Shown here: piece after piece, positions 1 through 19,823 of the stretch
Numbering within the stretch: the first letter of the stretch is position 1
Layout: each line of letters starts with the position of its first letter
Assembly: GCA_902799385.1 (NCBI GenBank)
Contig: CADCAK010000002.1
Coordinates: 62,001-126,000, forward strand
DNA: 64,000 nt
From: an uncultured bacterium
GTDB taxonomy: Bacteria; Verrucomicrobiota; Kiritimatiellia; RFP12; UBA1067
Reading direction: 5' to 3'
Program-made: the position numbers and the translations under genes
The notes under the pieces: generated by a model
The model's database searches: none
What the model was told of the DNA's origin: nothing
Seen by the model: only the letters and a program-made list of their open reading frames with translations

Positions 1-1
1 C

Positions 2-1219: not shown

Positions 1220-1231
1220 GAGGGCACACGC

Positions 1232-1855: not shown

Positions 1856-1946
1856 TGAATACATGTCCCCACAACGCATTCCATAGCGTTTATGAGTAAT
1901 CCTTACTATCTGACTCTGATGATCCTTCCGGACGGTGAATATACAT

Positions 1947-2738: not shown

Positions 2739-2759
2739 AGCGAAAGGTCATGATTCGCG

Positions 2760-2900: not shown

Positions 2901-3015
2901 TTGCAACCTCACATTTCTTTTTCAGTGATGATTTTCGACATGAATAATGCTCCGGGCAATCACAATCAAAAGCTGCATAGTCTCTGAATTTCGTATGAGC
3001 TGAAAAAGTAAACAA

Positions 3016-3411: not shown

Positions 3412-3439
3412 GACATGTCCTCCGCCATTGTGTCGTTCC

Positions 3440-3763
3440 TTATGCCTTGAGCCACCTCAGCACATTCTGAAGCCAATCAATGCCCATCTCATTCGTAAAC
3501 GCTGCTGCGCAAGATATGGACTTCGCATAATCCAAAGCACCTGGATAGAACACGATGTGCCGCCCGCTGTTGCAGCTCAAACGCATTTTCGTAAGGGGCC
3601 AGTGCGCTCCGCACTTGCTGCAGATCACGTTTGCGCACTCGTCCAAGAGCAACTTGCCCTGACACCTGTCGCCGTGAATCCAGTATTCATTCTCCGCACA
3701 TCCGTAATCGCGCAGGCATCCAGGGCAATGCATGTAGATATAGATCCTCTTTGTGCCTATCAT
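3440..3763 (-). CDS. Zinc-ribbon protein with C-terminal GIDWLQ motif, 107 aa
   Basis: The start at 3763 overlaps the stop of the CDC48-like gene (ATGA), with AAGGAGG upstream, so translation is probably coupled. Two or three Cys pairs are visible: CPGC near the N-terminus and CSKC in the middle, plus single Cys residues. This suggests one or two zinc ribbons. The end reads GIDWLQNVLRWLK. The protein at 5866-6246, on the other side of the ATPase gene, has the same layout, so the two are diverged paralogues flanking the ATPase. They may be adaptors or substrates; no family is recognised. Confidence 0.75.
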   Translation of the reverse strand: MIGTKRIYIYMHCPGCLRDYGCAENEYWIHGDRCQGKLLLDECANVICSKCGAHWPLTKMRLSCNSGRHIVFYPGALDYAKSISCAAAFTNEMGIDWLQNVLRWLKA

Positions 3764-5850
3764 TTGACACCTCCTTGTGGTAGCCCCTTCCTTTGGACAA
3801 TCATATTCTCTTTGACATCACGAATGACCTGCCCAATGGTTTTCCCTGTGATATTCGCATCAGCGCAATCAAACTCAGGAAACATCTTCTTGATCCCATC
3901 AAGAACTTGTTTTTCGTCCAGTTCAAGGCTGATTTCGCTCTCAAAGGCCTTGTACCCCCTGATGCAGGCGGGCAACAGCGTGCCGTCTTCCGCCGCCAGT
4001 ATGGACAGAACCTTCTGAAGGCGACCCAAGCTCGACAACTCGTTAACAAGCTTGTGGGCCAGCACATCGGAGCTACGGCAGTTTTCCATGTTCTGCACAA
4101 GCAAGACAGACGGCGCAGTCTGACGGCATTTGGCGACAACACGACGGATCTCCTGCATGGCCTCCGTCAAAGGAAGCGCATCCAACGCAAGGCAATCTAT
4201 CGACATCAGTTCATATCCAAACTTCAGCGCAAACGCCTTGACAAGGGTGCGCTTGCCCGATCCGCTTCGTCCCAGCATCAGAAGATTCGCGCAAGACGGA
4301 CGGCCTGGGAGTTTCTCACTGTCAATCAACCCGATGAAACGGATATGGATATCTTTGAGAAGTTCCTTCGGACGGTCAAGTCCAACAATATCATCCCAAG
4401 CGATATCACCTGTGACAATCTGTTCGCCGCGCATCTGTGTTGGAGTGATCTCCTTAACAGCCGCGAGGAAATCATCGTATGACAGCTTTATCGCTTCCAC
4501 GTCCGTATTCAGTTGGAACTTGCCATCCGTCCCGAACGACGAATTCCGCCGTATGGCATGCATGACTGACTCATGGTAGAGCATCGAAATATCCGCGCCG
4601 GAAAACCCGCTCGTCAATTCGGCGAGCGTCCGAAGCGCATGTTTGTCCATGCTGCCATCAAACAATCCCTGTTTTTCCACATGGACATACTTTTTGAGTA
4701 TATCCAGTCGTCCGTTCAAGTCGGGGAGCGGAACCTCAAACTCGTGGTCGAATCGTCCTGGCCTGCGCAAGGCCGGGTCTATGGCATCCAGGCGATTAGT
4801 AGCACCAATGAAAAAGATGCGCTGGTTGCTGTTAACGCCATCCATCAACCGTAACAACGTATCGACAACGTTCCTCTGATGTTGTTCGACATTCTCTCCG
4901 TCACGCGACACCGCCAAAGCGTCCAGCTCATCTATGAACAAAATCCCAATTCCATTTTTGGCTGCGGCTATCGCCTCGTCGAATTTTTCCTTGATGTTAC
5001 GTTCCGACATCCCGACATATTTTGAGAGAACCTCAAAGAGGTCGAGCTGAACAAACGCTGCCCCCATCGCCTGGGCAACCGCACGGGCTATCAAGGTCTT
5101 GCCATTACCTGGAGGCCCGTAAAGAATAACTCCCCTGCTGGGCTTATCTCCAAAACGGTGCAAGAGATCAGGACAGCTCGTCGGGATCTGCACAATTTCC
5201 CGCAAGCGGCTTATGATCGTATCAAGTCCTCCGATTTTCGAGAAGTCGATTGCTGCATCTTTATTCTTGGGCAATCCTTGGAACACGAGGTTGGTGTCCC
5301 AATCTACGCGATATGCAACACTACGGTCGGCAGGTTTTGGGAAGATTCCGCTAACCTTACCCATGACGCTGTCCTTCGTTGTTGGCTTCACGAGAGTCTG
5401 TTGCGCAAGGTAAGCGACCCCTGTCTTCGCGAGGAAAATCCCCTTGGCGGATTTCACCTCGCCCTCACCCCAGAAGATCGTATCGTCCGGGTTCAAACTC
5501 ACCGTGACAGTTTCCGCATGGGGAAGTTCGGCAACATCAACATAACTGACCTCTACCTTCATGCCCTGATCGTATGCCCAAATGGGGTCCATCAATTTCC
5601 GTGGAACGAAAATGATGCCGTCCGCATCGTGGGCATCCGAGTTTAGGCTGTCAATCTTCGCATAGAGAGTGAAGCGAGACAGAGGATTCAACGAGACGAT
5701 TTTGACGTAATTCGGCTGATCATCAGGATTAAGGTCGTCAGGCAGCATTTCGCTGATCTCACGAGCCGTCGCCCAGACACTTGATGTGTCATCACGGAAT
5801 TTGCCGCCGCCTTCAGGCTGAACATTGAGCCGTAGTGTTTTCGCTTTCAC
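3760..5850 (-). CDS. CDC48/VAT-like double AAA+ ATPase with degenerate second ring
   Basis: A 696-aa protein with a GTG start at 5850 and GGAGGTGG upstream. Residues 1-190 are beta-rich and match the position of a CDC48-type N domain. The D1 ring is intact: Walker A GPPGNGKT (245-252), Walker B ILFIDE (303-308), sensor Asn352 and arginine fingers in RRPGRFD (362-368). The second ring is degenerate: its P-loop is GRSGSGKR (527-534), with the usual Thr/Ser replaced by Arg, and the Walker B position reads LLVQNME instead of a DE pair. So D1 probably drives unfolding while D2 is structural. The flanking paralogous zinc-ribbon proteins are likely partners or clients. Confidence 0.9.
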   Translation of the reverse strand: MKAKTLRLNVQPEGGGKFRDDTSSVWATAREISEMLPDDLNPDDQPNYVKIVSLNPLSRFTLYAKIDSLNSDAHDADGIIFVPRKLMDPIWAYDQGMKVEVSYVDVAELPHAETVTVSLNPDDTIFWGEGEVKSAKGIFLAKTGVAYLAQQTLVKPTTKDSVMGKVSGIFPKPADRSVAYRVDWDTNLVFQGLPKNKDAAIDFSKIGGLDTIISRLREIVQIPTSCPDLLHRFGDKPSRGVILYGPPGNGKTLIARAVAQAMGAAFVQLDLFEVLSKYVGMSERNIKEKFDEAIAAAKNGIGILFIDELDALAVSRDGENVEQHQRNVVDTLLRLMDGVNSNQRIFFIGATNRLDAIDPALRRPGRFDHEFEVPLPDLNGRLDILKKYVHVEKQGLFDGSMDKHALRTLAELTSGFSGADISMLYHESVMHAIRRNSSFGTDGKFQLNTDVEAIKLSYDDFLAAVKEITPTQMRGEQIVTGDIAWDDIVGLDRPKELLKDIHIRFIGLIDSEKLPGRPSCANLLMLGRSGSGKRTLVKAFALKFGYELMSIDCLALDALPLTEAMQEIRRVVAKCRQTAPSVLLVQNMENCRSSDVLAHKLVNELSSLGRLQKVLSILAAEDGTLLPACIRGYKAFESEISLELDEKQVLDGIKKMFPEFDCADANITGKTIGQVIRDVKENMIVQRKGLPQGGVK

Positions 5851-5865
5851 AATCCACCTCCTTCC

Positions 5866-6246
5866 CTACAGCGTTCCACACGCGCCCCTACGCTTCAGGT
5901 TCTCCAACACCTTCTGCAACCACTCCAATCCGGCCTCAGTCACCAACTGTCCAGCTGTCGAGACAGCCTCGGCAAGTGCCGCCGCGCTGGCACCAACAAA
6001 CTCATCTGACGATCCGCTGTGATCTGGACAGCTGTACTTCCAGTTTTCGACATGAGATACAAGCCCGCACTTGATGCACTTGAAGTTTGCGTCATCCCCG
6101 ATGTAGATGTCCCCGTGGCAATTGTTGTCATAGTGAGTCCAATACCTGACAGGAACATCCTTTTTCCCACGGTCAAGGCAAACTGGGCAACGGATATACA
6201 GCCGGAAATAGGTATGCCCGTTTTCGTGGATTTTTCTGAGACTCAT
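5866..6246 (-). CDS. Zinc-ribbon protein with C-terminal GLEWLQ motif, 126 aa
   Basis: It starts at 6246 and ends 15 bases before the CDC48-like gene. Two CxxC pairs are visible (CPVC and CIKC), with His residues between them, giving a probable zinc ribbon. After an Ala-rich linker it ends with GLEWLQKVLENLK, the motif also seen at the end of the 107-aa protein beyond the ATPase and, more loosely, in the 142-aa protein at 7123. Shared tails beside a AAA+ unfoldase suggest a recognition helix. The function is unknown. Confidence 0.75.
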   Translation of the reverse strand: MSLRKIHENGHTYFRLYIRCPVCLDRGKKDVPVRYWTHYDNNCHGDIYIGDDANFKCIKCGLVSHVENWKYSCPDHSGSSDEFVGASAAALAEAVSTAGQLVTEAGLEWLQKVLENLKRRGACGTL

Positions 6247-6263
6247 TGTTTTTGTTCCTTTCT

Positions 6264-7091
6264 TTAGTTTTTGTTAGAGTTGTCTTGCGTTGACGAAGTA
6301 GTCAGAGAATTTGTATCGTCTTTCAACTTTGACGAGATCTCCTTTTCAATCTCATCATCCGAAAACTCAGGCAGGCCTTCGACATATGATGTGAACATGT
6401 TGCGCACCCTTTTCGCCGGAGTGGAAGTATCGTAGAACGAGATCATGGCCTTCATCAGCCGGTTAAAGCCTTCTACCGCCGAACCGCGTTTATGCGTTGT
6501 GAGTTTGACATCCTCGCCAGACTCTAAAAGCATTTCTTTTCTGTGATTGACTGCCTCCATTCCTCTGATCAATGATTCAAGCCCTTCACGAACCGCCTTT
6601 TCCTTTCCCTCATCGTCCAGATCCTCTATCCGGGACATATTGGCAACGTACATCTCGCACACTTGCATTATTCCAGCCACAGAATCAACCTGCCGACTGA
6701 GCGCAACACAGATAGGAAGGATGTACCTGTCGACTTCGTCGTAAGGGACATCGCTCCCTCGTCCGCCATACCACTCCAAGAGATCGGAGAAGAAATACCT
6801 CATCGTTTTTGTGAACAGTTCCTCGTCATCGAATTCTGTTTGAAAGAATAATGCCGAACACTGGAGCAGAACCTCCTTCATCACGCCCGATAGCGTTGGT
6901 GGATTCTTCTTGTCATCGTGAAGATCCCGATCTGTTTTGATTGCCGTGGTCGGCAATTGGGAGACACCTCCTCCCGAACGACGAATCATCAGGAAAGCCT
7001 CAAGGCGTTCCAGAGCAATGATCATCATGTGAAAGACATTGTCAAGCCCTTGAAGCTGCACCTGAATCGGACGTTGTACTAGCTTGCTCAT
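6264..7091 (-). CDS. Helical protein of the CDC48-like operon, 275 aa
   Basis: The start was chosen at MSKLVQRP (7091); the open frame extends further but overlaps the preceding gene. The sequence is almost wholly helical, with an acidic Ser/Thr/Asn-rich tail (TNSLTTSSTQDNSN). No catalytic motif is seen. It sits between the 142-aa protein and the zinc-ribbon gene, all close together on the minus strand. Not recognised. Confidence 0.7.
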   Translation of the reverse strand: MSKLVQRPIQVQLQGLDNVFHMMIIALERLEAFLMIRRSGGGVSQLPTTAIKTDRDLHDDKKNPPTLSGVMKEVLLQCSALFFQTEFDDEELFTKTMRYFFSDLLEWYGGRGSDVPYDEVDRYILPICVALSRQVDSVAGIMQVCEMYVANMSRIEDLDDEGKEKAVREGLESLIRGMEAVNHRKEMLLESGEDVKLTTHKRGSAVEGFNRLMKAMISFYDTSTPAKRVRNMFTSYVEGLPEFSDDEIEKEISSKLKDDTNSLTTSSTQDNSNKN

Positions 7092-7122
7092 TTCTTGATT
7101 CCTTTCTTGTTGTGCGTATTGT

Positions 7123-7551
7123 TTACCGGTGAGACTTTGGAGGCTCCACAGGAGTTGACGGTGTCGGCCCATCCAATGATTTCTCGGGATCATTGGGCTT
7201 GTCCCCACCGCCATTTAGCGACCCGAGAAAATCCTGAAAGGACTCCAAGCCTATATCTGGTATCTTCTGCCCAATCATAGACACAGCAGTTTCCAGGTCA
7301 ATGGGGGAATACCCGTCCTCCGCTTGGCCTTCCTTCGGGTCGCCAGCGAGCTTCATCTTATGATTGCCGAAATCGACGAGCCACTCCAAAATGGGAGCTG
7401 CTTTGTGCTCGGCTTCGCATTCTAGAAGAAGCTTCTCTGCGTCGAACACGATGGGCGACCCGGTATCCGCGTATGTCATCTGCACACTCCCACAGACCTT
7501 GTCCTTGTCAAGAGATTCAGGATTCCTCACAACCAATGGTACTTTTTTCAT
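7123..7551 (-). CDS. Unknown 142-aa protein, CDC48-like operon
   Basis: It begins MKKVPLVVRNPESLDKDK. It has a beta-rich N-terminal half, an IGLESFQDFLGSL helix resembling the GLEWLQ motif of its operon neighbours, and a Gly/Pro-rich disordered tail. This layout (fold, helix, tail) would suit a client or adaptor of the ATPase; that is inference. Ubiquitin-like folding was considered, but the Gly-rich stretch is internal and there is no terminal di-Gly. Confidence 0.65.
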   Translation of the reverse strand: MKKVPLVVRNPESLDKDKVCGSVQMTYADTGSPIVFDAEKLLLECEAEHKAAPILEWLVDFGNHKMKLAGDPKEGQAEDGYSPIDLETAVSMIGQKIPDIGLESFQDFLGSLNGGGDKPNDPEKSLDGPTPSTPVEPPKSHR

Positions 7552-7619
7552 TACGTTTTTCCTTTCTTGTTAGTGCCTTCCCAGGCGAGATGTTCCCCTC
7601 GTCTGGGAAAGCTTTCCGC

Positions 7620-7805
7620 TCACGGGAAGAGCGACTGCGACCACGTCCCGTCGCCGTTGTCATTCCACCTGTTACCATCGGAGTCTCTGTACTCTCCGAA
7701 GCCATCATTTTCGATCTCGATGCGATCAGCGCACTTTTCAAGCGTCACAGCATCACGCATGAATGTTTCGCGGCCAACCTCATCCATCGTACCCCAGATA
7801 CTCAT
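7620..7805 (-). CDS. Small acidic protein, 61 aa
   Basis: The start was chosen at MSIWGTMDEVGR (7805), with AAAGGAAC upstream; the longer frame lacks a good start. The protein has an acidic middle and a tail with NRWNDNGDGTW, a short WxxNGDGxW beta-hairpin type seen in small phage and operon proteins. It is part of the sigma/CDC48 gene run. No function assigned. Confidence 0.55.
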   Translation of the reverse strand: MSIWGTMDEVGRETFMRDAVTLEKCADRIEIENDGFGEYRDSDGNRWNDNGDGTWSQSLFP

Positions 7806-7897
7806 CTTTTTGTTCCTTTCTTTGTTATGATGGGCACTATGCCCACCATTAGCATTTGACGAAAAACCTGCGACCTGCTTGCAGCCTTTTCGCATTT

Positions 7898-8080
7898 TTA
7901 CCGACGGCAAGAACATTCGACATCGATCTCACCCCCGCCATTGCATTTGTCGCAAAATTCCTTAACCAACTTGTCGTCAGCGTCCCAATGCTCACGATAT
8001 CCCGTGCCGCCGCATTTGTCGCACTTGACTCGATTGTAGCCTCTTCCGCCACAGATTGAACACTCATTGACTCCAAACAT
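7898..8080 (-). CDS. DnaJ-type CxxCxGxG zinc-finger protein, 60 aa
   Basis: From MFGVNECSICGG at 8080. Three CxxCxGxG-like repeats are visible (CSICGGRG, CDKCGGTG, CDKCNGGG) plus a final CSC. This is the zinc-binding core of DnaJ without the J domain. Stand-alone versions act as small chaperone or redox-like adaptors. Its place right after the sigma gene and before a AAA+ unfoldase fits a protein-quality role, by inference. Confidence 0.75.
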   Translation of the reverse strand: MFGVNECSICGGRGYNRVKCDKCGGTGYREHWDADDKLVKEFCDKCNGGGEIDVECSCRR

Positions 8081-8182
8081 TTCCAGTTTCCTTTCTTGTT
8101 GATTGTTGATGATTACTACCTTACAGTCATATAGACGCAACGCTCGTATCCTTCTCGCATCAAAAAAGCAATGCCCGATTTC

Positions 8183-8959
8183 TTACCGAGTATGCATACG
8201 ACTCTTGCTCAAGACCCCCAACTCAAAAGCCTGATAGCCCAAAGTTTCTATCAACTTATGGCGAACCCGATCAACAATACACGCGATACGGTTCTGCTCA
8301 ATTTTCTTGACCTTCGCTGCGTCAGTCTCACGAACCTTGCTATGAAACACGATTCTCGCAACATCCAGTGCCGAGCACCCCTGATAAGCAACCAGCCTAA
8401 AAACGTAGGCCTTCTGCTTAGGCAACTTCGTAAGCGCGCCATCTATCAGTCGCAAGAAATGCTGCATATCGTGCCGCTCCAGCTCATCTAACGGAGAGGG
8501 TGTGTGGCTTTCGGGCTCTTCAATTGATGTCCTGTTCGATGCTTCCACCTCCTCGTTCTGCCAATCTAGTGATATTGTCTTAGGAACTCGTATGACCTTG
8601 CCTGTATATTTGTCTATCGCAACCACTCCAGTCTTTGGATCGCGTTTTAGGATGCAGGACCGCCTCGCTTCGCTACATGCTTCACGATAACAAATCGTAC
8701 TTATCATTGCTGGTAGGCTTTTAATTGCCTCCGCACCATGCTTGGTAAGAAGTAAAGTCTTGACCTTAGCCTGTGCATTCTCAGATGCATTCTCACGGCA
8801 AATCTGCGGTAACCAGAAAAAATCACTTGAGACACACTCATCACAGGCATCACGTATAGTGTCACCAAATTCAGATGTCATGTTTTCTGGCCGGATCTCT
8901 CCGTCCGCTGTCAAATCGGCATATTGCCTATCCAGCTTTTCAGCAGTAGTCTTTTTCAT
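8183..8959 (-). CDS. ECF-like RNA polymerase sigma factor
   Basis: A start at 8959 was chosen because AAAGGAAC lies just upstream. The middle has a region-2-like helix pair (LPAMISTICYREACSEARR). After a ~60-residue variable linker, the C-terminal part resembles region 4 (LTKLPKQKAYVFRLVAYQG followed by a helix-turn-helix). The 258-aa length and ~70-residue N-terminal extension are unusual for ECF factors. It heads the run of genes that includes the CDC48-like ATPase and the M50 protease, so it may control that operon. It is a divergent member, hence moderate confidence. Confidence 0.65.
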   Translation of the reverse strand: MKKTTAEKLDRQYADLTADGEIRPENMTSEFGDTIRDACDECVSSDFFWLPQICRENASENAQAKVKTLLLTKHGAEAIKSLPAMISTICYREACSEARRSCILKRDPKTGVVAIDKYTGKVIRVPKTISLDWQNEEVEASNRTSIEEPESHTPSPLDELERHDMQHFLRLIDGALTKLPKQKAYVFRLVAYQGCSALDVARIVFHSKVRETDAAKVKKIEQNRIACIVDRVRHKLIETLGYQAFELGVLSKSRMHTR

Positions 8960-9223
8960 TGCGCGTTCCTTTCGGTTATCAGCCTCATGGTAGCGACACC
9001 ATATCGCTACACCTTTGGCCAACGCGCATAGAATACGATATATCACCAGCCCACGCCGTGTGTGACGTGAACGTACTCACCTACTTTGTAAAGGGGGTGT
9101 ATCTGCTTTAGAACTTTATTGCTTGCGGCATACTATGTCTGCCACCGGTCGGCCTTCCAACGCCGATATTAAGCGCCCCCCCAAACGCACATCCATAACA
9201 AGAGACTTTTCTGTATGCCTTGG

Positions 9224-9988
9224 TCATTTAGTATTGGTTAAGGGAGTGTATGACTTTTCCCTATCTTTCTTGCGTTTTATCGTATTGCAGAACTTCGCGA
9301 TAAGATCTGCGGGCAATTCTGCTCCACAAACCTTTGAATATATGGCAAAGCATCGCCTCGCATATTCCGGACTCTCCGTTGCATGCTTCCATACATCTGA
9401 CATCTTGGAGAAAAAGGCATCTTGGAGATCATGTGCCATGAATTGAAGCTCCTTGTCATGCCGATTTAATTGACATGAAAGAATTGCTCTTTCAATTCGA
9501 TCCGAAATTTGTTCCATAGCCTCTAGTGATATTCTTTCCGTTGTCCGCAAAAGCACCTCTATACCCAACAACAACAATTTAATAATTTCAAAATTATCTC
9601 CTTGTGCGGAAGACAATTCTATTGTCATGTCAGATGCTTCTACTATATTGCCAATCCACGCGTTCTCATCATTTTCGCTCAAATACGTTTCCGCATAATC
9701 AGCAAGATGTTGTAAATCGTTTATTACTTCCTTCTCGTTGTGTTCATTTTCCCCTGCTTTATCTAATTCGACCTTGGCAGACTTAGGATCAACAACTACC
9801 ATCTGTTCAAGAAAGTAATTAATAATAGCTGCTGACTTCTCACTTGCGAGATGCTGCGAGACGGAACTGTCCGGTTGCTTGGCGTCCGGAAAAAGAATCA
9901 GTCCAAGCTCTTTCTGCGTTCGCCACAAGCCAAACAGATACTTGTAAATACAGTCTCTCTGACGATTGTTCAACTTCGTTCTGCTCAT
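9224..9988 (-). CDS. Unknown 254-aa protein coupled to the 812-aa protein
   Basis: The start at 9988 (MSRTKLNNRQRDCIYK) overlaps the upstream stop as ATGA, so it is translationally coupled. The protein is helical. Its N-terminus resembles a compact DNA-binding turn (RQRDCIYKYLFG...RTQKELG) and its C-terminus is basic. The two-gene coupling suggests a complex with the 812-aa partner. No family recognised. Confidence 0.65.
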   Translation of the reverse strand: MSRTKLNNRQRDCIYKYLFGLWRTQKELGLILFPDAKQPDSSVSQHLASEKSAAIINYFLEQMVVVDPKSAKVELDKAGENEHNEKEVINDLQHLADYAETYLSENDENAWIGNIVEASDMTIELSSAQGDNFEIIKLLLLGIEVLLRTTERISLEAMEQISDRIERAILSCQLNRHDKELQFMAHDLQDAFFSKMSDVWKHATESPEYARRCFAIYSKVCGAELPADLIAKFCNTIKRKKDREKSYTPLTNTK

Positions 9989-12423
9989 TGTGCCGCCTTC
10001 CATTCTTCTTTGATCTTTTCGATGTAGAGATCATATCCACGCATCACACACTCAACATGCCTGGGATTATTACCCGGTGCATTGACGAGCGCATTTCTAA
10101 ACCCAAAAGGCGGGTAGCTCTTCCAATCCTTTGCCAGTTCTTCTTTGGTTGTATGTGCCAGATTAAATTTCGTTGTCTTGCTGGCGACCTTGTCCTTAGA
10201 TTGTTTTATGTCAGCTTCAAGTCCTTTTCTTGCAGGCAGCCATATTTGATTTACAAATTCAATCATGTCCTGCGTTACCACCTCGTGAGAATTTTTCTTC
10301 TTATTCAAGACCCTCTCGGCAAGATTCTTCAACGCACCCCACAGAGTACTCTCAAGAAGTTCTTTAGTAGTCGCTGCTGAATGTATTATAGATGCTACTA
10401 TCTCAAACCTCGTCTCTTCTATTGAAGGTGGTGCGGCTTGAATTGTTTTATCTAATACAGAAACATCGAACGGCATGTCCATCACGAACTTATTTGAACT
10501 AGCATCGCTTTTCCGCTCAACAAGCCATTTCCTAGCCTCATTCATTACATCATTGCGCATACTGGTAAAAGTCTTTCCCGTAGAAGTTTTAGCAAAGAGA
10601 TAACAATATATACATACAATTTGACAAAATGCAACCATAGCTTTGTAATCCACACCGCGTGTCTCATCATCTTTGCTATCAACATCAAAATTCCATACAA
10701 GCATCTCAATCCAGACGCGCAGGTGGAATTCATACTCAAGGCCCCTTTTGTCTTGCAGTCGAATAGTGCCTTGCAGTTTCTCGTCCGGTCTAATAGGCGC
10801 ACAAATCGATTTTGAACAGTATTTATACGCCTCCTTCATCATATCAATGCCATACATATTCCGATCTTCGACAATCTGGTCTCGACAAAGAATATCACCC
10901 TTGTCCGGCATAAGCAGTCTAAGGCCATTCTTCTGCGGGTGTTGTAACCACCATCGTGCGGCGAATGTGGCCTGACGTGCATAATGACGAGCAAACCTGT
11001 AACCCAACGCGACATATTTCCCGCCGACGTTACCATCCGCAAACTTGTCCCAAGTCCGCAATGCGTCGCCTGCCAGTTCCACAGATCTGTTCACATACCT
11101 TCTGGCTTCGTCCAAATCCTTCTTTCCCCAAATATCAGCCGACGAGCTTTCTGCCATGTACCGACAAGCTGTCGATGCCATGTACTTGAACCTACAGATA
11201 ATTTCTGTATCAACACTCTTCTCTTTCGCACAAATGTCAGACAGCCGCAAGATGTCAAGATACATATCACAAGAGAGGCGTTTATCTTCGACCCTGACAG
11301 AATAATAGTTCCACCTCGCCCAATCGTACATAAGCCTCGTCGCGCACATCAGGAAATACCAACGGTTTGGATTCGTAATAACGGATAACACGCGCCAACA
11401 AGGTCGAACATTCTCCAGCACCCACTTGAAGGAATTTCGCACGACCACTTTACGCTCAAGAGTAGTGTCTTTAAGTTCCTTGAATATCAACGACAACGCG
11501 CCATTGTTGTTATCCACTTTTGCCTTAGCCACCTTGTCAAAACGTTTCTGCTCATCGACAAAGTTTCTGTGCCGAACTTCATTTATGCGCATATTGAGTT
11601 GTCTGATGAAGAATGCAAGCTCCTCAAACTTTTGGAATGACAATCCCAATAAATAGTTTCTATCAGACACATCAAAAGCATATTCCTTGAACCAATCATA
11701 AGACTTGCCTTTTATGCGGATCATCGAAAAAGCTTTTCTGAAACTTTCACGCGAAAGCGCAACCATCCAACGACTCCACCTGCCATAGTCGCGATTCTCA
11801 ATAAGATAATCCAACAGTTCGCCGAATAAAACACGCTTTTGGGCGTTAGTGAACGGAGAATTGCCGGTCGGCTTGAGCCCCTCCGCCCCATGTGTTTTAT
11901 CATCAACATTGGCATTGACGTTGTTCCTAAAACTCTTATTCAAGAGAATGCTATCTACTAGCCCTAACAACGCATTTTCCAAGGGGCGATTTCCCTTCCC
12001 GCTATCGTGATCACGATCGCCGATTCTATCCCGTGCAAGCGCAACCTGCAATTTCGAGAGGGCCTTCGTACCATGACACCAAAGTACGTCTCCGCACTTT
12101 TTAAGGAAATTATCAAGCTTTGAATCCGTATCGGTGGCAGAACTATTATCATCCAGACCAAATTGTAGCCCCATCGCATTGACGACCTTCATTTGCTCAC
12201 TGGACGTTCCATAGGCTTCAAAAACCACATCGGCATCACGTAGGTCACGCGACGTTTCGCCTCTCACAAAGCTGAAAAAGTTCCCGCGATCAAGCGGGTC
12301 AGGCATGTTGGCGACACTTCCAATCTTTTTCCGCAAAGTCAAATAGTGTTTATACTGATCCCCAGGCTTAAGCATTTTAAGCCACCCAACTTGCGCCGGA
12401 GATAATTTTATTGTTCCCTTCAT
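9985..12423 (-). CDS. Large helical protein, 812 aa, unknown
   Basis: The start was chosen at 12423 (MKGTIKLSPAQVGW), preceded by AAGGAGG and overlapping the amidase stop by four bases (ATGA). The protein is long, mainly helical, rich in Arg, Trp and Tyr, with no signal peptide, P-loop or zinc motif seen. It lies in the same coupled run as the radical-SAM gene, the Cys-rich peptide and the amidase. A scaffold or effector role cannot be told apart. Confidence 0.7.
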   Translation of the reverse strand: MKGTIKLSPAQVGWLKMLKPGDQYKHYLTLRKKIGSVANMPDPLDRGNFFSFVRGETSRDLRDADVVFEAYGTSSEQMKVVNAMGLQFGLDDNSSATDTDSKLDNFLKKCGDVLWCHGTKALSKLQVALARDRIGDRDHDSGKGNRPLENALLGLVDSILLNKSFRNNVNANVDDKTHGAEGLKPTGNSPFTNAQKRVLFGELLDYLIENRDYGRWSRWMVALSRESFRKAFSMIRIKGKSYDWFKEYAFDVSDRNYLLGLSFQKFEELAFFIRQLNMRINEVRHRNFVDEQKRFDKVAKAKVDNNNGALSLIFKELKDTTLERKVVVRNSFKWVLENVRPCWRVLSVITNPNRWYFLMCATRLMYDWARWNYYSVRVEDKRLSCDMYLDILRLSDICAKEKSVDTEIICRFKYMASTACRYMAESSSADIWGKKDLDEARRYVNRSVELAGDALRTWDKFADGNVGGKYVALGYRFARHYARQATFAARWWLQHPQKNGLRLLMPDKGDILCRDQIVEDRNMYGIDMMKEAYKYCSKSICAPIRPDEKLQGTIRLQDKRGLEYEFHLRVWIEMLVWNFDVDSKDDETRGVDYKAMVAFCQIVCIYCYLFAKTSTGKTFTSMRNDVMNEARKWLVERKSDASSNKFVMDMPFDVSVLDKTIQAAPPSIEETRFEIVASIIHSAATTKELLESTLWGALKNLAERVLNKKKNSHEVVTQDMIEFVNQIWLPARKGLEADIKQSKDKVASKTTKFNLAHTTKEELAKDWKSYPPFGFRNALVNAPGNNPRHVECVMRGYDLYIEKIKEEWKAAQ

Positions 12424-13229
12424 TCCGCCTCCTTCTTGTTGCGAATAGCCAGACATACCGCTGCCATCCGACCGACCGTATTCGTCGCGCCGCTCGTAAT
12501 TGCCTCTGGATAGAAATGACGTTGAAAGGCAACAACCGCCTTGTCCAGGTCAGAGACATCATAGCCAATCTCAGAAAGCATCTCTGGGACGGACTTCTTC
12601 GGTTCCGCAAAATCATCTGTCCATATCCCGACGCCAGCCGCAGCAAACTTCCGCCACGGGAACGCCTCGCCAGGGTCTATTTTACGCGTTGGAGCTGAAT
12701 CAGAATGACCGAATATGTCTCGATTTGAAATCCCATATCTTGCCTTTATGTCTTTGCATAGCGCTATGACAGCATCAATCTGACACGCAGGAAATGGCAC
12801 ACGTTTCCCGTCCTCTGTCATTCCTATGTTCTGAATCTCAATTCCAATTGAACGATCATTGATTTTGTCTAATCCACGCCACGAACCAACCCCGGCGTGC
12901 CATGCTCTTTTTGACTCATCCACTAACTGATAAATCGTCCCGTCCACGTCAACAAGGTAGTGGGCAGAAACCCGCCCCGCAGAATTAGTTGGATCGCACA
13001 ACCTCGCCAATGAATCTTCACACGTTGGCAAAGCAGTATAGTGTAGTGCCAGCATTGAAACTGGGCACTGTCGTTCATTCCAGTTCGGAGAAGGATGTAC
13101 TTGCATAGATACGATTCCATTGCTTTGTATGCTCACACATGATGAGCAAAGCATCATCAACGCGGGAATGGCAAGCCACACAATGCCATACCTGCTACTT
13201 AGCTGACCAATTGTTGTTGCGATCATCAT
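12420..13229 (-). CDS. N-acetylmuramoyl-L-alanine amidase (Amidase_2), lipoprotein-like
   Basis: The core matches the T7-lysozyme/PGRP Amidase_2 fold: LHYTA (first zinc His), SAHYLVDVDGTIYQLV, a WHAG motif (central His), IGIEIQN, and a final GHSD (third zinc His region). It cuts the MurNAc-L-Ala bond in peptidoglycan. The start at 13229 is a choice: the open frame goes to 13433, but that part overlaps the Cys-rich peptide in another frame. From this start a hydrophobic segment ends in LCSSC, a possible lipobox. It is coupled to the 812-aa gene downstream. Confidence 0.8.
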   Translation of the reverse strand: MMIATTIGQLSSRYGIVWLAIPALMMLCSSCVSIQSNGIVSMQVHPSPNWNERQCPVSMLALHYTALPTCEDSLARLCDPTNSAGRVSAHYLVDVDGTIYQLVDESKRAWHAGVGSWRGLDKINDRSIGIEIQNIGMTEDGKRVPFPACQIDAVIALCKDIKARYGISNRDIFGHSDSAPTRKIDPGEAFPWRKFAAAGVGIWTDDFAEPKKSVPEMLSEIGYDVSDLDKAVVAFQRHFYPEAITSGATNTVGRMAAVCLAIRNKKEAE

Positions 13230-13261
13230 TGTTAATTCTATCAGTTTGTCACGGTCGACTA

Positions 13262-13294
13262 CGCCTGTCACCCACACAAAGCAGGTGACAGGCG
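13262..13294 (-). promoter_or_regulatory. Strong hairpin between Cys-rich peptide and amidase
   Basis: An 11-bp perfect inverted repeat (CGCCTGTCACC / GGTGACAGGCG) with an 11-base loop lies eight bases after the peptide stop. No T-run follows, so it is probably an mRNA-stabilising or attenuating element rather than a full terminator. Such hairpins after RiPP precursors raise precursor yield over the downstream genes; that role is inference. Confidence 0.6.
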
Positions 13295-13302
13295 CAGATT
13301 CA

Positions 13303-13437
13303 TTAAGTGTCTTCGCAATTGCAATTTTCAGAGCCAGTCCCAGGATCAGCACAATCGCAGTTTGGATCGTCGCACATTGACACCTGCGTTTCTGTTGAAT
13401 CCAAGGAAACGAGTTCTCCAATATCAGTATCATTCAT
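13303..13437 (-). CDS. Cys-rich 44-aa putative RiPP precursor peptide
   Basis: ATG at 13437 has a near-perfect ribosome site (AAAGGAGGTGAG) and overlaps the end of the radical-SAM gene; it ends with TAA at 13303. The peptide has an acidic leader (MNDTDIGELVSLDSTETQV), then a core with five Cys in ~20 residues: CDDPNCDC, a Pro-Gly turn, and NCNC before EDT. A short leader plus Cys-rich core directly after a SPASM radical-SAM enzyme is the normal layout of sactipeptide/ranthipeptide-type RiPP precursors. The substrate role is inferred from context; the ORF and RBS are seen. Confidence 0.75.
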   Translation of the reverse strand: MNDTDIGELVSLDSTETQVSMCDDPNCDCADPGTGSENCNCEDT

Positions 13438-14734
13438 TTTTCTCACCTCCTTTCTTTTTTACGCGATCAAGAATCAATCGCATTACAAATTTCTTCACAA
13501 ACAGGCAATACGCATTTCTACCTTTTTCAGAAAATGCCTTATTCATCATTGGGCATCCTCCGCCACAATGCCACTTGCAAAAACAATCAACACACTTAGC
13601 CTGTTGCTGGCTATATTGTGGTACTTTATCAATCTTTCGTTCGTGAATCCCTGTTTCTACATCTCCAAAGGAAAAATCCCTAAACCATGCATCCTTTCGA
13701 GAAGAGACACGATGACATGAGACAAAATTTCCATCAGGGGTTAGACACAATTCCCCCCTACAGAACTTGTTAGAAAGTCTGCCAAAAGAAGTCTGAATGG
13801 AATTTCGTACTTTTATGCCATGTCGTCTGGCCAATTCCTTGGCTTCCCAGAAAGAATCAAGGAAGTGATTATAAAAGTCATTAGAGGCATCTTCATCTAG
13901 AGTGACGTGCTCAAAATGCAGACTTTTAATATCTGGGATGTTTCCTATAATATATTCCACCATTTCTACCATGCGACCAACACAGGATCGTGTTATGGTT
14001 GTTCTAATTCTTTGTGTAATACCAGCCGAAACCAACTTTTTAATATTAGCAATTACTACCTCATGCGATGGTGCCCCAGACTTGAATGGGCGATTTGAAT
14101 TCTGAACATCTGGCAAGATATCAAAAGACACTCCAACCCTAACATTATTATCCGCCAACCATCTAATTTTCTCATCAGTCAAAAGAGTCCCGTTTGTGGT
14201 TACCGCAATAGAAACAGGCAATCCAGCTAACTTCGACTGTTCCTTTATTATTTCAACGCATTTCGAGAAAAGACTCCAATTAAACAAGGGTTCCCCTCCA
14301 CCAATAAAAGAAACTTCCCCCTTATTCGCAATCGATGAAATCCACAGTGAGATTGCTTTCCTAAACATTGAAAGACTTATGGCCTCATCCGCATGTGCTT
14401 CTTGGGCATAACAATATACACAGCCAAGATTGCAAGCCTGCGTTGGTATTACCATCAATCTATTAAAATTCGTAAAGCCTTTTGCTGTATAATCCTTTAC
14501 TTTAACTTGCCGCGCATCGATAACTTGCATGTACTCATGAATCTTATTAGGCCAAAATAACTCACCCTTGGCAATAAGTTTTGCGACAGATTCGGCAACC
14601 GAAAAACACATTCTTGATAATGGCGCATACACTATATTCTGGTGTGCATGTTCAATTAAATACAATTCCCGCTCACCAACTCGCGCAGAGCGAATAGGAT
14701 ATTGATCTTTACACATTTTTATTCCACATCCCAC
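13430..14734 (-). CDS. Radical SAM/SPASM peptide maturase
   Basis: A GTG start at 14734 with GAGGAGA upstream. It has the radical-SAM cluster CNLGCVYC (C101, C105, C108), then GGGEPLF, and a C-terminal SPASM domain with CRGELC followed by CVDCFCKWHCGGGC (C381 to C394) and a last Cys at 410, enough for two auxiliary Fe-S clusters. This family modifies peptides, commonly forming thioether or similar crosslinks on Cys-rich substrates. The 44-aa peptide overlapping its stop is the obvious substrate candidate. At 434 aa it is of normal length. Confidence 0.92.
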   Translation of the reverse strand: MGCGIKMCKDQYPIRSARVGERELYLIEHAHQNIVYAPLSRMCFSVAESVAKLIAKGELFWPNKIHEYMQVIDARQVKVKDYTAKGFTNFNRLMVIPTQACNLGCVYCYAQEAHADEAISLSMFRKAISLWISSIANKGEVSFIGGGEPLFNWSLFSKCVEIIKEQSKLAGLPVSIAVTTNGTLLTDEKIRWLADNNVRVGVSFDILPDVQNSNRPFKSGAPSHEVVIANIKKLVSAGITQRIRTTITRSCVGRMVEMVEYIIGNIPDIKSLHFEHVTLDEDASNDFYNHFLDSFWEAKELARRHGIKVRNSIQTSFGRLSNKFCRGELCLTPDGNFVSCHRVSSRKDAWFRDFSFGDVETGIHERKIDKVPQYSQQQAKCVDCFCKWHCGGGCPMMNKAFSEKGRNAYCLFVKKFVMRLILDRVKKKGGEKNE

Positions 14735-14785
14735 TAAGGTTTCTCCTCATAATTTTTTTCATTATGTTCCTATCTTATCAGACGC

Positions 14786-16015
14786 CTATTTCGCCGATTT
14801 ATTGCAGAAGTTCTCATTCCGAAATTCTTTGAGTTCGTGCCACTTGATGAACACCGATGGCGCGCCATCACAACCAGGAAGGACAGAATATGGAGTCCAA
14901 GTCCATTTGACACCATCTTTATTCACAAGCATTGAGACATCATCGCCTGTAAGATCAAGAGGCCATTTTGACTTCTCTGCCGCTTCTTCTTCATCAAGGT
15001 GTTCGCTATAAAAACGTTTCGTTACGAACGCTGATAATGCCTTCAACTTGTCGGGCGCGAAATAGTCTTCGACGCCAAGCTCCCGGCCATCGGGCAGGCT
15101 GAAAATCTTTGAGATATAGCTGTCGTGGCATCCATTCCCTCCATCCCTGTCATAGCCCTCATTCCAGACACATACAACTGGACGTTCGTACCATTCGGCG
15201 TTCTCCTTCGCCGTGAAGCCGAATGGCCAATCCAGGTGTAGGTCAACAGCGAATGTCCATTGGCTGCAACAATGCCACCAGCTGTCATTCATTTTTTCTG
15301 GCGGTGCGCATTTGTAGCAAGACTGCGCACGCTCTTTGATTCCAGACACTCCCAATTCAAGTGCCTGTGTAGTAATGCGTTCATCGTCTTTAGCCGGGAG
15401 CCGTCCGGCTTTATGCGAGAGAGTATTGCCGACCAGTTTTGCCCAGTCTGCAGGCTGCAAACCAAACTCATCAATGTCCCTATTCTCTTCTTCCTTTGCC
15501 CAGAGTTCCTTGTTGCGATTCCGGAGTGTTTCTTCTGTTTCGCCAAGAGACTCCGGGGCCGTGTACGGGGAGGTCTCCGGCACGTATGCGAACGCCATCC
15601 ACAAAATTGTTTTGCGCACCTTGGCGAGCGCATCCTTCGTCAGCCCCGACTTCGCCTCTGGCCATTCAATATGGAGCTTAACTGAGATCTCCGAGCCACG
15701 ACTTCCCGTATGATCCAAATCGTATTTCTTGACATCAGACATCTTGTGCGCTGGGCCTTTGCCTTTGAACTCATACGAACGAACAGAGTACCGCCCATCA
15801 TGCTGATCCGCCGACTCAATCTGCTCGGAAGCATTCGACCCAACCGTCACATTCGGATCGGCATAAGGGTCTTGATATATCTCCTCCTGCTCTCGTGAGC
15901 AAGCCACACATAGCAAGGCTATGAGGAATGAATATGCACTACCCATAGTGACTTTCGCAAGCCACTTCTGCGGCATAGCATCGCCGCATGTTCTGTCTTT
16001 GTTGCAATTTCGCAT
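14786..16015 (-). CDS. Lipoprotein with RsiV/DUF3298-like C-terminus
   Basis: Starts at 16015 or 15976 (MPQKWLAKV); a hydrophobic stretch ends in the lipobox LLCVAC, so it is exported and lipidated. The C-terminal part (LPDGRELGVEDYFAPDKLKA then ALSAFVTKRF) resembles the DUF3298 domain of anti-sigma RsiV and peptidoglycan-linked lipoproteins. A Cys cluster (CYKC, WWHCC) suggests disulfides outside the cell. It sits just before the radical-SAM gene and may be the sensor or receptor of the cluster, by inference. Confidence 0.7.
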   Translation of the reverse strand: MRNCNKDRTCGDAMPQKWLAKVTMGSAYSFLIALLCVACSREQEEIYQDPYADPNVTVGSNASEQIESADQHDGRYSVRSYEFKGKGPAHKMSDVKKYDLDHTGSRGSEISVKLHIEWPEAKSGLTKDALAKVRKTILWMAFAYVPETSPYTAPESLGETEETLRNRNKELWAKEEENRDIDEFGLQPADWAKLVGNTLSHKAGRLPAKDDERITTQALELGVSGIKERAQSCYKCAPPEKMNDSWWHCCSQWTFAVDLHLDWPFGFTAKENAEWYERPVVCVWNEGYDRDGGNGCHDSYISKIFSLPDGRELGVEDYFAPDKLKALSAFVTKRFYSEHLDEEEAAEKSKWPLDLTGDDVSMLVNKDGVKWTWTPYSVLPGCDGAPSVFIKWHELKEFRNENFCNKSAK

Positions 16016-16186
16016 TGCGGCTTACTCCTTGTGGGATACACTTTGGATAGTATTTCCCTTGATGGGCGTATATTATACCATACTTTGGGCCGTGAAATCA
16101 ATTGTAAACTTCATAAAATTTATAGTTTGTAAAATGCGAATTAAAAGTATCTACACATTACCCTATGCAAGATATGCAGTTTATGA

Positions 16187-16192
16187 TATAAT
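16187..16192 (+). promoter_or_regulatory. -10 box TATAAT before the Fic gene
   Basis: A perfect TATAAT within an AT-rich stretch, about 34 bases before the ATG of the Fic protein, divergent from the lipoprotein gene. The 16016-16225 gap is AT-rich promoter DNA with no other feature seen. A -35 box is not clear. Confidence 0.55.
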
Positions 16193-16225
16193 ATCGCCCA
16201 TCTACCACTTCATGAAAGAAGAGCG

Positions 16226-17269
16226 ATGCATATTTTCGACTACGACAAGGCGCTTGAATCTCTGCTGTCGCCAGAGATAATGACCCTCATTGCTGCCATA
16301 CACGAATACAAAGGACGGCAGGATTTTCTGCTCAATGCGAAGGACGAGGTGCTGGACGCGCTCATCGAGGTTTCGCGGGAGAAGTCGGTTGTGGCGTCGA
16401 ACCGCATCGAGGGCGTCTCGACGCCCGATTACCGCCTCCGCGATCTGTTTGACGAGGATGCCGAGCCTCGCGACGAAGACGAACTGGCTATCTGCGCCTA
16501 TCGCGAGTGCTTCACGTCCGTGCTGGCGAACTATAGTGCGATGCAGCCAACGCCCGAATCCATCCTTGCTCTGCACAAGCAGCTCTTCTCACACCTGCCA
16601 ACCGGCGGCGCATGGAAGAGCGAGGATTCGGCAATCACGGAGATGGACGGCGAGGGACGCGAGTCCGCGTTGTCCCGAGCGGTCACGGCGGCCGACACGC
16701 CGCTGGCGATGAACCTTCTCTGCGATGCCTACGGCAAGGCGATGGCGCAGGGCCGTTTCAACCCGCTACTGCTCACAGTCGTGTTCATCTTCGACTTCCT
16801 CTGCATCCATCCGTTCCAGGACGGCAACGGCCGCATGAGCCGGCTTCTGGCACTACTTCTGACGTGCCGCGCCGGTTACATGGTGGGCAAATATGTCAGC
16901 GTGGACCAGATTGTCGAGGAGTCCCGTGCGGACTACTACGATACTCTGCGCGCCAGTTCACGGGGTTGGCACGAGAACGCGAATGACCTCAAACCGTTTG
17001 CGGAATACATCCTCAACGCGGTGCTGAAGGCGTACAAAGAGTTCGCCTTGCGGCTCGATGGACTCGTTCACGAACACACGAGCAAGTCGGATCGCATCCG
17101 TAACGTCATCGCAGCGGCGGAGGGTACGATCTCGAAGCGCGAGATACTGGAGCGATGCCCAGACATCAGCGTCGTGACGGTCTCGGTCGTTCTCAAGCGC
17201 CTCTGCGACGAGGGCTTTATCTGCAAGACGGGCAATGGTCGCAACGCCGCCTACGTCCGCATCGAGTGA
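16226..17269 (+). CDS. Fic-family AMPylase/nucleotidyltransferase with winged helix
   Basis: It carries the Fic core HPFQDGNGRMSR (His195), which transfers AMP or another nucleotide to a protein hydroxyl. Upstream it has the inhibitory motif SNRIEG (S58 to E62), so it belongs to the class with an autoinhibitory N-terminal helix. The C-terminal ~70 residues form a winged helix (KREILERCPDISVVTVSVV). This three-part layout of 347 aa is typical of chromosomal Fic proteins. It stands alone with its own promoter. Confidence 0.92.
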   Translation: MHIFDYDKALESLLSPEIMTLIAAIHEYKGRQDFLLNAKDEVLDALIEVSREKSVVASNRIEGVSTPDYRLRDLFDEDAEPRDEDELAICAYRECFTSVLANYSAMQPTPESILALHKQLFSHLPTGGAWKSEDSAITEMDGEGRESALSRAVTAADTPLAMNLLCDAYGKAMAQGRFNPLLLTVVFIFDFLCIHPFQDGNGRMSRLLALLLTCRAGYMVGKYVSVDQIVEESRADYYDTLRASSRGWHENANDLKPFAEYILNAVLKAYKEFALRLDGLVHEHTSKSDRIRNVIAAAEGTISKREILERCPDISVVTVSVVLKRLCDEGFICKTGNGRNAAYVRIE

Positions 17270-17392
17270 TGATAAAAAACTCTTCGATGATAACCAACAA
17301 CAGGGATGTTGTGGAGAATGCCTGTTGAATTGAACGTTGCTACTTTTGATGAACCAGACAATTCCTAAACACACGCAACAATGATCCGAACA

Positions 17393-18589
17393 TCAACTCA
17401 CCTTACCATGTGTTTCAGCACAATAACCGCACCCAGAAACAGCCTCTACGATGTCCTCCAGCGCCTTCTTCAGCTCAGTCGAAAGAGATCTACATTCCAA
17501 TTTTATTGGCCCTGACATATCTTTGCCAACTTTGGACACCAAGAACTCATCCAAGCTCGGAAATTTGTCCTCTTCTGTTCTAATGTACGAAAGGAATCGT
17601 GGCCTTTCTGAAGTAAAGACGCCAAACACGCCATGATGCTTCCATCCATCTATACACCTCTCGTCCATCTCAACTACATCGCAGTCACGCTTGAAGGCAA
17701 CGAATGAGACAACATCGACAGCTCGATGAAGTCGCTCACGGAAAAAGCGCAAGAGCGAATATTGTCTGAAAACAGGCGAAGGCACAGATTCGCCGGAAGA
17801 ACTCCAACGAGGACGGAAATAGGCCTTTGCAAACCATATCCCTGTCTTTTCAAATTCCGTGCTTAGGAACACCTTGCCATTCAGATAATGGATCGAGAAC
17901 GCAAACCCATCGACAACTCGCCGCGCAACGGTTTCGCCGCCAAGCCCATGTATGGCATCATCAATGATCTCGTACATTTCTTTCGGCTTGTCGATAATTT
18001 CTTTTTTAGCGATCTTCTGCCTTTTCTTCCGTGATGGCTTTTCTACAAGTCCAAGTAGTTCGAGAATTTGCATCTCTTCTTTGTCTGGTTGCAGAGGATT
18101 GAAGAAATCAACGCCGTACTTGCTTCGGTATGTCGTCCCACATGTCGTCATTGCCGCAAAGACCATAGATGGATCGTCCTTCGTCAACTGGTAGAATGCG
18201 CAGATCATACGTTCAATCTTTTCAAACACCATCCACGAATACTCCGAACAGAATTTCCATTCATGGATGTTCTTCACCATGTTCTGGGGGACACGTTTCA
18301 ACAATGCCTCGGCCACCTTGCTTGTTGTTGAGTTGTGCAGAAGTATGGCCACAGACCAAGACCACCATGACCAGCTGTACCCTCGGTGGATTTTGGGTAA
18401 CCGCCCCGCCTTGCGCTTCATCAGAAGTGCAATGATAGTCATGGCCATCGGGCACCACAAAACTGCCGCCCTTGCCAAAAGCGCATACGCAAACAAAACA
18501 TCAGTCTCAATATATCGATAAGCCAGTCGGGTCATTGCTGGAGCTAGCTCGCGATTGGTTATCGTGCAAAGTTCGTGGTAGTTACTCAT
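17393..18589 (-). CDS. Unknown 398-aa protein, ArdC operon
   Basis: GGAGGC lies eight bases before ATG 18589. The first ~90 residues are helical and hydrophobic (YIETDVLFAYALLARAAVL, then MAMTIIALLM), followed by a Trp-rich stretch. The C-terminal half is soluble with a Cys pair near the end (CGYC). It is the last gene after ArdC and a 65-aa basic protein. Family not recognised. Confidence 0.65.
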   Translation of the reverse strand: MSNYHELCTITNRELAPAMTRLAYRYIETDVLFAYALLARAAVLWCPMAMTIIALLMKRKAGRLPKIHRGYSWSWWSWSVAILLHNSTTSKVAEALLKRVPQNMVKNIHEWKFCSEYSWMVFEKIERMICAFYQLTKDDPSMVFAAMTTCGTTYRSKYGVDFFNPLQPDKEEMQILELLGLVEKPSRKKRQKIAKKEIIDKPKEMYEIIDDAIHGLGGETVARRVVDGFAFSIHYLNGKVFLSTEFEKTGIWFAKAYFRPRWSSSGESVPSPVFRQYSLLRFFRERLHRAVDVVSFVAFKRDCDVVEMDERCIDGWKHHGVFGVFTSERPRFLSYIRTEEDKFPSLDEFLVSKVGKDMSGPIKLECRSLSTELKKALEDIVEAVSGCGYCAETHGKVS

Positions 18590-18716
18590 CTATGCCGCCT
18601 CCTTCTATCATAGAAGACGCGTATCGACACCGATTCTTGCAGACAAGCTTTCTCCATTACGCCTAACCACACACAGATCATCTGCTCATGCACATTATGT
18701 AGCAAAACCGACTCAT

Positions 18717-18914
18717 TTACCACCTGACGTCCCACATATCAAAGCACACTTTGGCTACAGGGAACTCACTGTTTTGTACATCAACTCCTTTTTCCATATT
18801 TCGGCAAAGAACTTGTGACCGCACTCGCATACGCGAACTACTCAATTTCTTTATCTTCTTGAAACTTCTATGTGCCCCTTTGAGAATGTCATGCCCACGA
18901 CTACTTCGAGACAT
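18717..18914 (-). CDS. Small basic protein, 65 aa
   Basis: Its ATG abuts the ArdC stop (TAAATG), with AAAGGAGGTG upstream, so expression is coupled to ArdC. The first half is very basic (FKKIKKLSSSRMRVRS), the second neutral, ending CFDMWDVRW. It could bind nucleic acid. No homologue recognised. Confidence 0.55.
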   Translation of the reverse strand: MSRSSRGHDILKGAHRSFKKIKKLSSSRMRVRSQVLCRNMEKGVDVQNSEFPVAKVCFDMWDVRW

Positions 18915-19823
18915 TTAGCACCTCCTTTGAATGAATTTTACAGCTGCCCATGCCTTACTGAATGCAGACAGCATCTGTTTCTTTTTTATGGTTCCGTCAA
19001 CAAAGCATTTTAGCCATGAATCGCAATATGCCGCTACGTCTTCAACATAAGGCAGCAACCCACATTCGTTACATAGTATTGAGGACCCAATCTCTGCGAC
19101 CAACTCTTCAAACGCATACGGCGCTGTCCCAAATGTCCCCGTCATGTCACGCTCCAAACGAGAACTTGCCCCCGTTGAATGAACCAACTCATGGAACAGG
19201 GTTCCGTAGTACCCCTCACTGCTCTTGAAATTCTCAATGTTAGGCAAACATACAGTATCTCTTATTGGCGAGTAATATGCGACACCCCCGCCATGCGAAA
19301 TAATGGGACCATCCTTATACTCATGGACAATCCGCTCTGCCGAGGCAATTGGCTTTGTATCGAATTTCGTGGTCACAAAGAATTCGCTGGGCAATCCCTC
19401 GCACTGGGCTATGTTGAAAACTGAGTAATGTCGATCAACATATATAACCTTCTCAGTGTCTCTAACAACTCTACCTGCCTTATCTTTCAACACGACTCCT
19501 GATTCGTCTCGCTTTGCCGGATGTACTAAATCACGCCAGAACACTCTTGCCGACTTTTCTCCCTTCCTGACTTTGCCGCCCAACCGATTACATTGTTCAA
19601 ATGTCAAGAATCTTCCTGTGGCATATCCTCGTTCAATGCAAAGCATGTTCAGCACAAAAGTGTTAAAACCTTTATATGCTCTTTTCGTGACAACGTTCAT
19701 GGGTATCGTGCCGTCCACCCACGGCTTCTTCCATATAACGACTCCAGATTGGAGAGCGGAAACAATCCGCTCATACACCTCATGTGCGGCATTGAACCGC
19801 TTTGTATTCTTTTCGCCACTCAT
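18915..19823 (-). CDS. ardC: ArdC-like antirestriction protein
   Basis: A 302-aa protein. The N-terminal domain matches the ArdC ssDNA-binding domain (DUF1738): VVIWKKPWVDGTIPMN, KRAYKGFN, GRFLTFEQ, VRKGEKSARVF. The C-terminal zinc metalloprotease-like domain has HELVHSTG with a second acidic helix (AFEELVAEIGSS). ArdC proteins protect incoming DNA from host restriction and are usual cargo of conjugative elements and phages. It is followed by two small-operon genes. The start at 19823 has a weak ribosome site. Confidence 0.85.
   Translation of the reverse strand: MSGEKNTKRFNAAHEVYERIVSALQSGVVIWKKPWVDGTIPMNVVTKRAYKGFNTFVLNMLCIERGYATGRFLTFEQCNRLGGKVRKGEKSARVFWRDLVHPAKRDESGVVLKDKAGRVVRDTEKVIYVDRHYSVFNIAQCEGLPSEFFVTTKFDTKPIASAERIVHEYKDGPIISHGGGVAYYSPIRDTVCLPNIENFKSSEGYYGTLFHELVHSTGASSRLERDMTGTFGTAPYAFEELVAEIGSSILCNECGLLPYVEDVAAYCDSWLKCFVDGTIKKKQMLSAFSKAWAAVKFIQRRC

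Follow-up and report, generated by a model that had tools for sequence, protein, structure and literature searches.

The window (the whole 64,000-nucleotide stretch of DNA that was analysed, from an uncultured bacterium) carries a two-gene RiPP cassette on its minus strand. The cassette pairs a radical SAM/SPASM peptide maturase of 434 aa (positions 13430–14734) with an overlapping gene for a Cys-rich precursor peptide of 44 aa (13303–13437), and it is a variant within the radical SAM/SPASM RiPPs that matches no curated family. We put a probability of about 0.8 on the reading that it is a horizontally gained unit whose two genes are coupled and which makes a thioether-bridged (ranthipeptide-type) peptide. 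Most likely, the product of the gene pair is a small, cross-linked peptide whose type occurs in scattered gut bacteria and on their mobile DNA and is not yet covered by family databases.

The maturase ORF is intact and starts with GTG, with an alternative ATG a few codons downstream. Its assignment is based on a match to Pfam PF04055 (5.6e-19), on the SPASM Cys residues, and on the predicted fold. The CX3CX2C motif reads CNLGCVYC, and the SPASM pattern is CX2CX5CX3C...C. In an alignment of 21 homologues, the radical SAM residues C101, C105, and C108 are invariant, as are the seven SPASM Cys residues (C325, C340, C381, C384, C390, C394, and C410); the seven-Cys SPASM domain is complete. When the protein was compared with NCBIfam profiles, the top model was PapB (NF047865), which it matched at 142.6 bits (cutoff 340); the score for SCIFF (TIGR03974) was 109 bits (cutoff 425), and the protein also fell below the cutoffs for nif11, QhpD, and other families. 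The closest PDB fold to the AF2 model (pLDDT 83.9, pTM 0.85) is that of CteB (5WHY, TM 0.70), followed by anSME, TigE, and ChlB. The model aligns over its full length with CteB, which has an RRE; at the N terminus, strands 14–46 and helix 48–55 are modelled with moderate confidence and residues 56–90 poorly. Together, the sub-cutoff NCBIfam scores and the CteB-like fold identify the protein as a SPASM enzyme that modifies peptides and belongs to none of the curated families. The only other radical SAM gene that these searches found in the host genome, on contig C51, overlaps a gene judged by eye to be sulfatase-like by 4 nt; it was rejected as a RiPP maturase on this ground and is taken to encode a sulfatase maturase.

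The peptide ORF (MNDTDIGELVSLDSTETQVSMCDDPNCDCADPGTGSENCNCEDT) runs from an ATG at 13437 to a stop at 13303 and overlaps the end of the maturase gene by 8 nt. A perfect Shine-Dalgarno (SD) sequence, AAAGGAGGTGAGAAAA (13438–13454, minus strand; also given as AAAGGAGGTGA ahead of the ATG), lies within the 3′ end of the maturase gene, and strong sites of this kind precede 71 of the 6199 start codons in the whole window (1.1%). An acidic leader (about residues 1–21) is followed by a Cys-rich core (residues 22–44) with Cys at positions 22, 27, 29, 39, and 41, that is, five within 20 residues. The peptide has 12 Asp or Glu residues and no Lys or Arg, and it contains two exact CX3D motifs (C27–D31 and C39–D43). 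Its calculated monoisotopic mass, untagged and unmodified, is 4642.7 Da. Thus, the initial annotation, made from the letters alone, had correctly read the SPASM enzyme, the overlapping 44 aa ORF, its five Cys residues behind an acidic leader, and a ribosome site that it called near-perfect. It is doubtful, however, that the ORF would be missed for its length, as that annotation held, since gene callers usually set their floor at 90 nt and the ORF exceeds it. At least two CxC motifs occur in 2 of the 838 small ORFs in the window, and of these two only the 44 aa ORF has a strong-SD start. Because strong SD sequences and paired CxC motifs are this infrequent, a chance origin of the ORF is unlikely. 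Neither NCBIfam nor Pfam contained a match for the peptide, none was found in the phage records searched, and the host genome (a MAG that is 77.5% complete) showed no second homologue. A small ORF with a modifiable core thus adjoins the maturase, as a RiPP gene cluster requires.

Among 57 other genomes of the host genus we found no maturase homologue at E 1e-20 or better, and members of the maturase clade occur in 2 of the 346 genomes of the class: the window genome and G786, which belongs to the host's own family. The G786 maturase is 30% identical to that of the window and is followed by a 46 aa ORF (MNQKIETMADAVISMVEASVQNTSVTGGSCGPWCSDAHECTPPTQV) that overlaps its stop codon by 4 nt and lies behind AAGGAAG; this peptide has three Cys residues and no CxC, and its Cys spacing is unlike that of the window peptide. 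At this locus (L231:327-2594), two more radical SAM proteins are encoded 3′ of the maturase and peptide genes. The initial annotation had called for a search for the same gene order in related genomes, and G786 supplies it. Conservation of the peptide, which it had also raised, holds for the architecture; the sequence is kept as a motif only, and none of the maturase homologues found exceeds about 35% identity.

In another genus of the same phylum (g74), 4 of 76 genomes carry loci with two or three maturases (L221:3688-8821 in G674, L222 in G600, L038 in G222, and L232 in G860). These clusters combine one to three short GCCD...CxC precursors (for example, MLTPIVTTSSAQVEGGCCDCFSMRCACDYQ) with two tandem SPASM maturases, and the one cluster examined, in G674, also encodes a formyltransferase-like protein and a B12-binding radical SAM enzyme 3′ of the maturases. 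A similar peptide, MKIVKVKKAHAKAAGCCDCFGGGCRCNN, stands ahead of tandem maturases on an IMG/VR contig. Viral contigs gave no match when scanned with the window enzyme alone, and matches were obtained with alignments as query. An IMG/VR contig (L132:1812-13271) holds at least four related maturases, a 28 aa precursor, and an ORF that by eye resembles a tyrosine recombinase, which hints that the maturase family moves on mobile DNA. A maximum-likelihood tree with a midpoint root unites the enzymes of the window, G786, G222, G600, G674, and IMG/VR with support of 99/97; support for the window clade in an earlier, larger tree was 92/84.

The sister group has longer precursors of the CxC...PVH type. 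These are 96–162 aa long, contain repeated CxC, end in CSCVPVH or CRCAPVH, and are encoded directly 3′ of a SPASM maturase (among others, L003:7363-7851, L006:2128-2484, L014:1610-2008, L017:7375-7665, and L020:1963-2346); 14 of 15 have their start no more than 60 nt from the maturase stop codon, and the five tested against NCBIfam had no match. The group spans Bacillota, Actinomycetota, Bacteroidota, Nitrospirota, Planctomycetota, Verrucomicrobiota, and further phyla; CxC-rich precursors directly downstream are found with more distant maturase relatives from many phyla. Plasmids of Salmonella and Edwardsiella (L042 and L043; NZ_CP022016.1 and NZ_CP116679.1) carry a related maturase with a Gly-rich LCCRGG peptide of 57–59 aa and, 3′ of the peptide gene, an ABC transporter and an S8 peptidase. 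This is a complete-looking RiPP cluster, so such genes can belong to related systems. On a Methylocystis plasmid (L044:4667-5053; NZ_CP143316.1), an acidic precursor of 128 aa with nine CxC motifs (..CECDLDPPECSCECEDYVCQC..) lies behind a related maturase and beside conjugation genes.

The pairing of maturase and Cys-rich precursor, which the initial annotation had proposed, is well supported by the gene order in G786 and by Cys-rich or CxC-bearing precursors next to homologous maturases. Across 37 loci, a count that includes the window locus, an ORF with at least two CxC motifs adjoins the maturase on the same strand in 23; the opposite strand gave 4 of 37, and shuffles gave 19 of 740. Precursors of the clade follow the pattern GCCD[CV]x(4-8)CxC, then NYQ, DYQ, YYQ, or NN, and the window peptide shares with them a CDC...CxC-end motif. 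A search of 22,689 small ORFs (2.2 Mb) for CD[CV]-x(3-11)-CxC-x(2-3)-end, a stricter criterion than two CxC motifs, gave 10 matches, of which eight are precursors of the clade, one is the window peptide, and one is a chance ORF. As this motif was defined after the window peptide had been seen (the loop is 4–8 residues in the clade alone and 9 in the window), the result is supportive and is not a blind test. None of the precursors that were compared with NCBIfam had a match there. From the SD sequence, the 8 nt overlap, the shared motif, and a position like that in G786, we infer with considerable confidence that the 44 aa peptide is the substrate of the maturase.

The mechanism that we propose starts from the observed gene structure, homology, fold, and precursor motif of the cassette, and its steps are modelled on PapB (PMC9413430) and CteB. 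The two ORFs would be translationally coupled, so maturase and substrate would be made together. The N-terminal region of the maturase, possibly RRE-like given the fold match with CteB, would bind the acidic leader, and the radical SAM and auxiliary Fe-S clusters would link the sulfur atoms of Cys residues to carbons close by in the CDC...CxC core at the C terminus. A 5′-deoxyadenosyl radical would abstract hydrogen from a residue of the core, after which the sulfur of a Cys would close the thioether with the loss of two hydrogens. PapB forms Cys-Asp/Glu thioethers in CX3D/E motifs and tolerates CXnD with n of 0–6 (PMC9413430), and the two CX3D motifs of the window peptide offer Cys27–Asp31 and Cys39–Asp43 as candidate bridges. 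Leader removal and export would fall to proteins encoded elsewhere. By analogy with these enzymes, thioether chemistry is a reasonable expectation for the window peptide; the bridge sites and any bioactivity of the product, be it antimicrobial, in signalling, or in metal handling, can be proposed only weakly.

The cassette may instead install something other than a Cys-Asp thioether, such as a sactipeptide-type α-carbon thioether, a carbon-carbon link, or an epimerisation, or it may yield a modified metal-binding CxC peptide. We regard this as a real possibility, although a less probable one, because the maturase falls well short of all NCBIfam equivalog cutoffs and scores nearly equally for several chemistries, because the clade has CCD and the terminal CxC in common rather than CX3D, and because the g74 cluster examined adds the formyltransferase-like protein and the B12-binding radical SAM enzyme. 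Against it stand PapB as the top NCBIfam model, CteB (also a thioether former) as the best fold, and the two exact CX3D motifs of the peptide. Clade precursors end in NYQ or NN and have no Asp at CX3D, so the acceptor may differ from the PapB type. A PapB-type bridge may therefore not apply, and the acceptor step appears to be the least certain part of the thioether mechanism.

The cassette is sharply set off from its surroundings. Its GC content is 40.2%, whereas the genes directly next to it have 49–50% and the overall value is 54%; a value this low occurs in only 0.3% of windows of the same size, and the step is about 10 points at both edges. This bears on the proposal that the amidase, the DUF3298 lipoprotein, and the following genes form a coherent cluster with the maturase and act in delivery or immunity, as the initial annotation had suggested. 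The genes share a strand and are closely spaced (the lipoprotein and radical SAM genes are 51 bp apart), but none of the nine neighbours considered (these two, an 823 aa protein, and six more) recurs as a cluster member beside related maturases, where the amidase has just two weak matches, in viral contigs. The amidase matches phage endolysins, and the gene for the 823 aa protein is unique to the host genome among 96 relatives searched. With the GC step, these results led us to reject the neighbours as cluster members, and a larger functional unit is improbable. The lack of a leader protease or exporter gene, also claimed earlier, was borne out for the genes adjacent to the cassette; an M50 peptidase is encoded 10.6 kb away. 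An adjacent gene of either kind is common in RiPP clusters but not universal.

These sequence features are most simply read as the insertion of a two-gene cassette into a series of genes unrelated to it. That series (1–19823) is mainly on the minus strand and encodes the M50 peptidase, an AAA ATPase, the 823 aa protein, a sigma-like protein, and an ArdC anti-restriction protein; the 823 aa gene, the one tested, was not found in relatives. A phage-like region at 28000–63700 encodes a portal protein twice (38550–40070 and 42887–44332), a fused protease-major capsid protein, the terminase large subunit, a primase, a helicase, a Sak4-like annealing protein, and an exonuclease, and within it lies an ORF (52635–54029) that by eye resembles a group II intron reverse transcriptase. 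The idea that the cassette is prophage cargo is not supported: the capsid, portal, and terminase genes are at least 24 kb away, with no feature that links the cassette to them.

Between the peptide and amidase genes, a perfect 11 bp inverted repeat (13262–13294, minus strand) folds as a longer, stable hairpin (ΔG −34.3 kcal/mol, z −5.5; none of 200 shuffles equally stable), in agreement with the strong hairpin noted initially. It has no T-run and is therefore not a canonical intrinsic terminator, a reading that we rejected; it may mark the 3′ end of the cassette transcript or a site of its processing. The repeat is single copy in the window and was missing from the other loci compared.

Least likely of all is that the 44 aa ORF is a chance frame and the maturase an orphan or active on a substrate encoded elsewhere: the peptide has no database family, and an unlinked substrate could be missing from a MAG that is 77.5% complete, but the strong SD, the coupling, the Cys density, the shared motif, and the equal gene order in a relative all speak against it.

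The cassette is a minimal RiPP system that lends itself to testing and comes from an uncultured lineage that has been little studied; with a 44 aa substrate and one enzyme, its cross-link chemistry is directly accessible to experiment. It is also tied to a wider maturase group, for whose CxC precursors no family model exists. We found no description of the maturase/precursor family in the literature covered, from which subscription papers were largely absent. Tentatively, the window, G786, g74, and IMG/VR systems could constitute an undescribed RiPP subfamily that has spread on mobile DNA in gut bacteria, with very short peptides, most of them with a CD[C/V]-x(n)-CxC-end core, and a cross-link outside the curated families that possibly engages the terminal CxC; some genomes would add paired maturases, a formyltransferase, and a B12-radical SAM enzyme. 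RiPP cassettes of this kind are to be expected in number, and that of the window is minimal and well delimited; with the paired-maturase clusters of g74 it forms a natural series from simple to elaborate.

Among known systems, PapB/PapA (freyrasin, NF047865) resembles the window cassette in joining a SPASM maturase to a substrate with Cys-X3-Asp motifs. However, the window maturase scores below the family cutoff (142.6 bits versus 340), and PapA has six CX3D/E motifs (PMC9413430), whereas the window peptide has two, together with CxC pairs. CteB/CteA and SCIFF (TIGR03974) provide the best solved fold (TM 0.70), and there too a small Cys-rich substrate adjoins the maturase; SCIFF has six Cys in forty-five residues, whereas the window peptide has five in about 20, and the maturase scores 109 bits against a cutoff of 425. 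The systems of g74 (G222, G600, G674, and G860) and of IMG/VR 3300022753_003531 and 3300024269_003497 have maturases that belong to the window's clade and precursors that are likewise short, with CD[CV] and a terminal CxC. Their precursors lie upstream of two or more tandem maturases, whereas that of the window lies downstream of a single one; their leader is MLTPIV rather than acidic and their core starts with GCC, and the g74 cluster examined has formyltransferase-like and B12-radical SAM genes, unlike the window cassette. The CxC...CSCVPVH/CRCAPVH group (L003–L020) shares a precursor directly 3′ of the maturase, often overlapping it, repeated CxC, and a CxC near the C terminus; it differs in its precursor length of 96–162 aa, in an FxRPGLETFF or KPGMKS leader block, and in its place in the sister clade.
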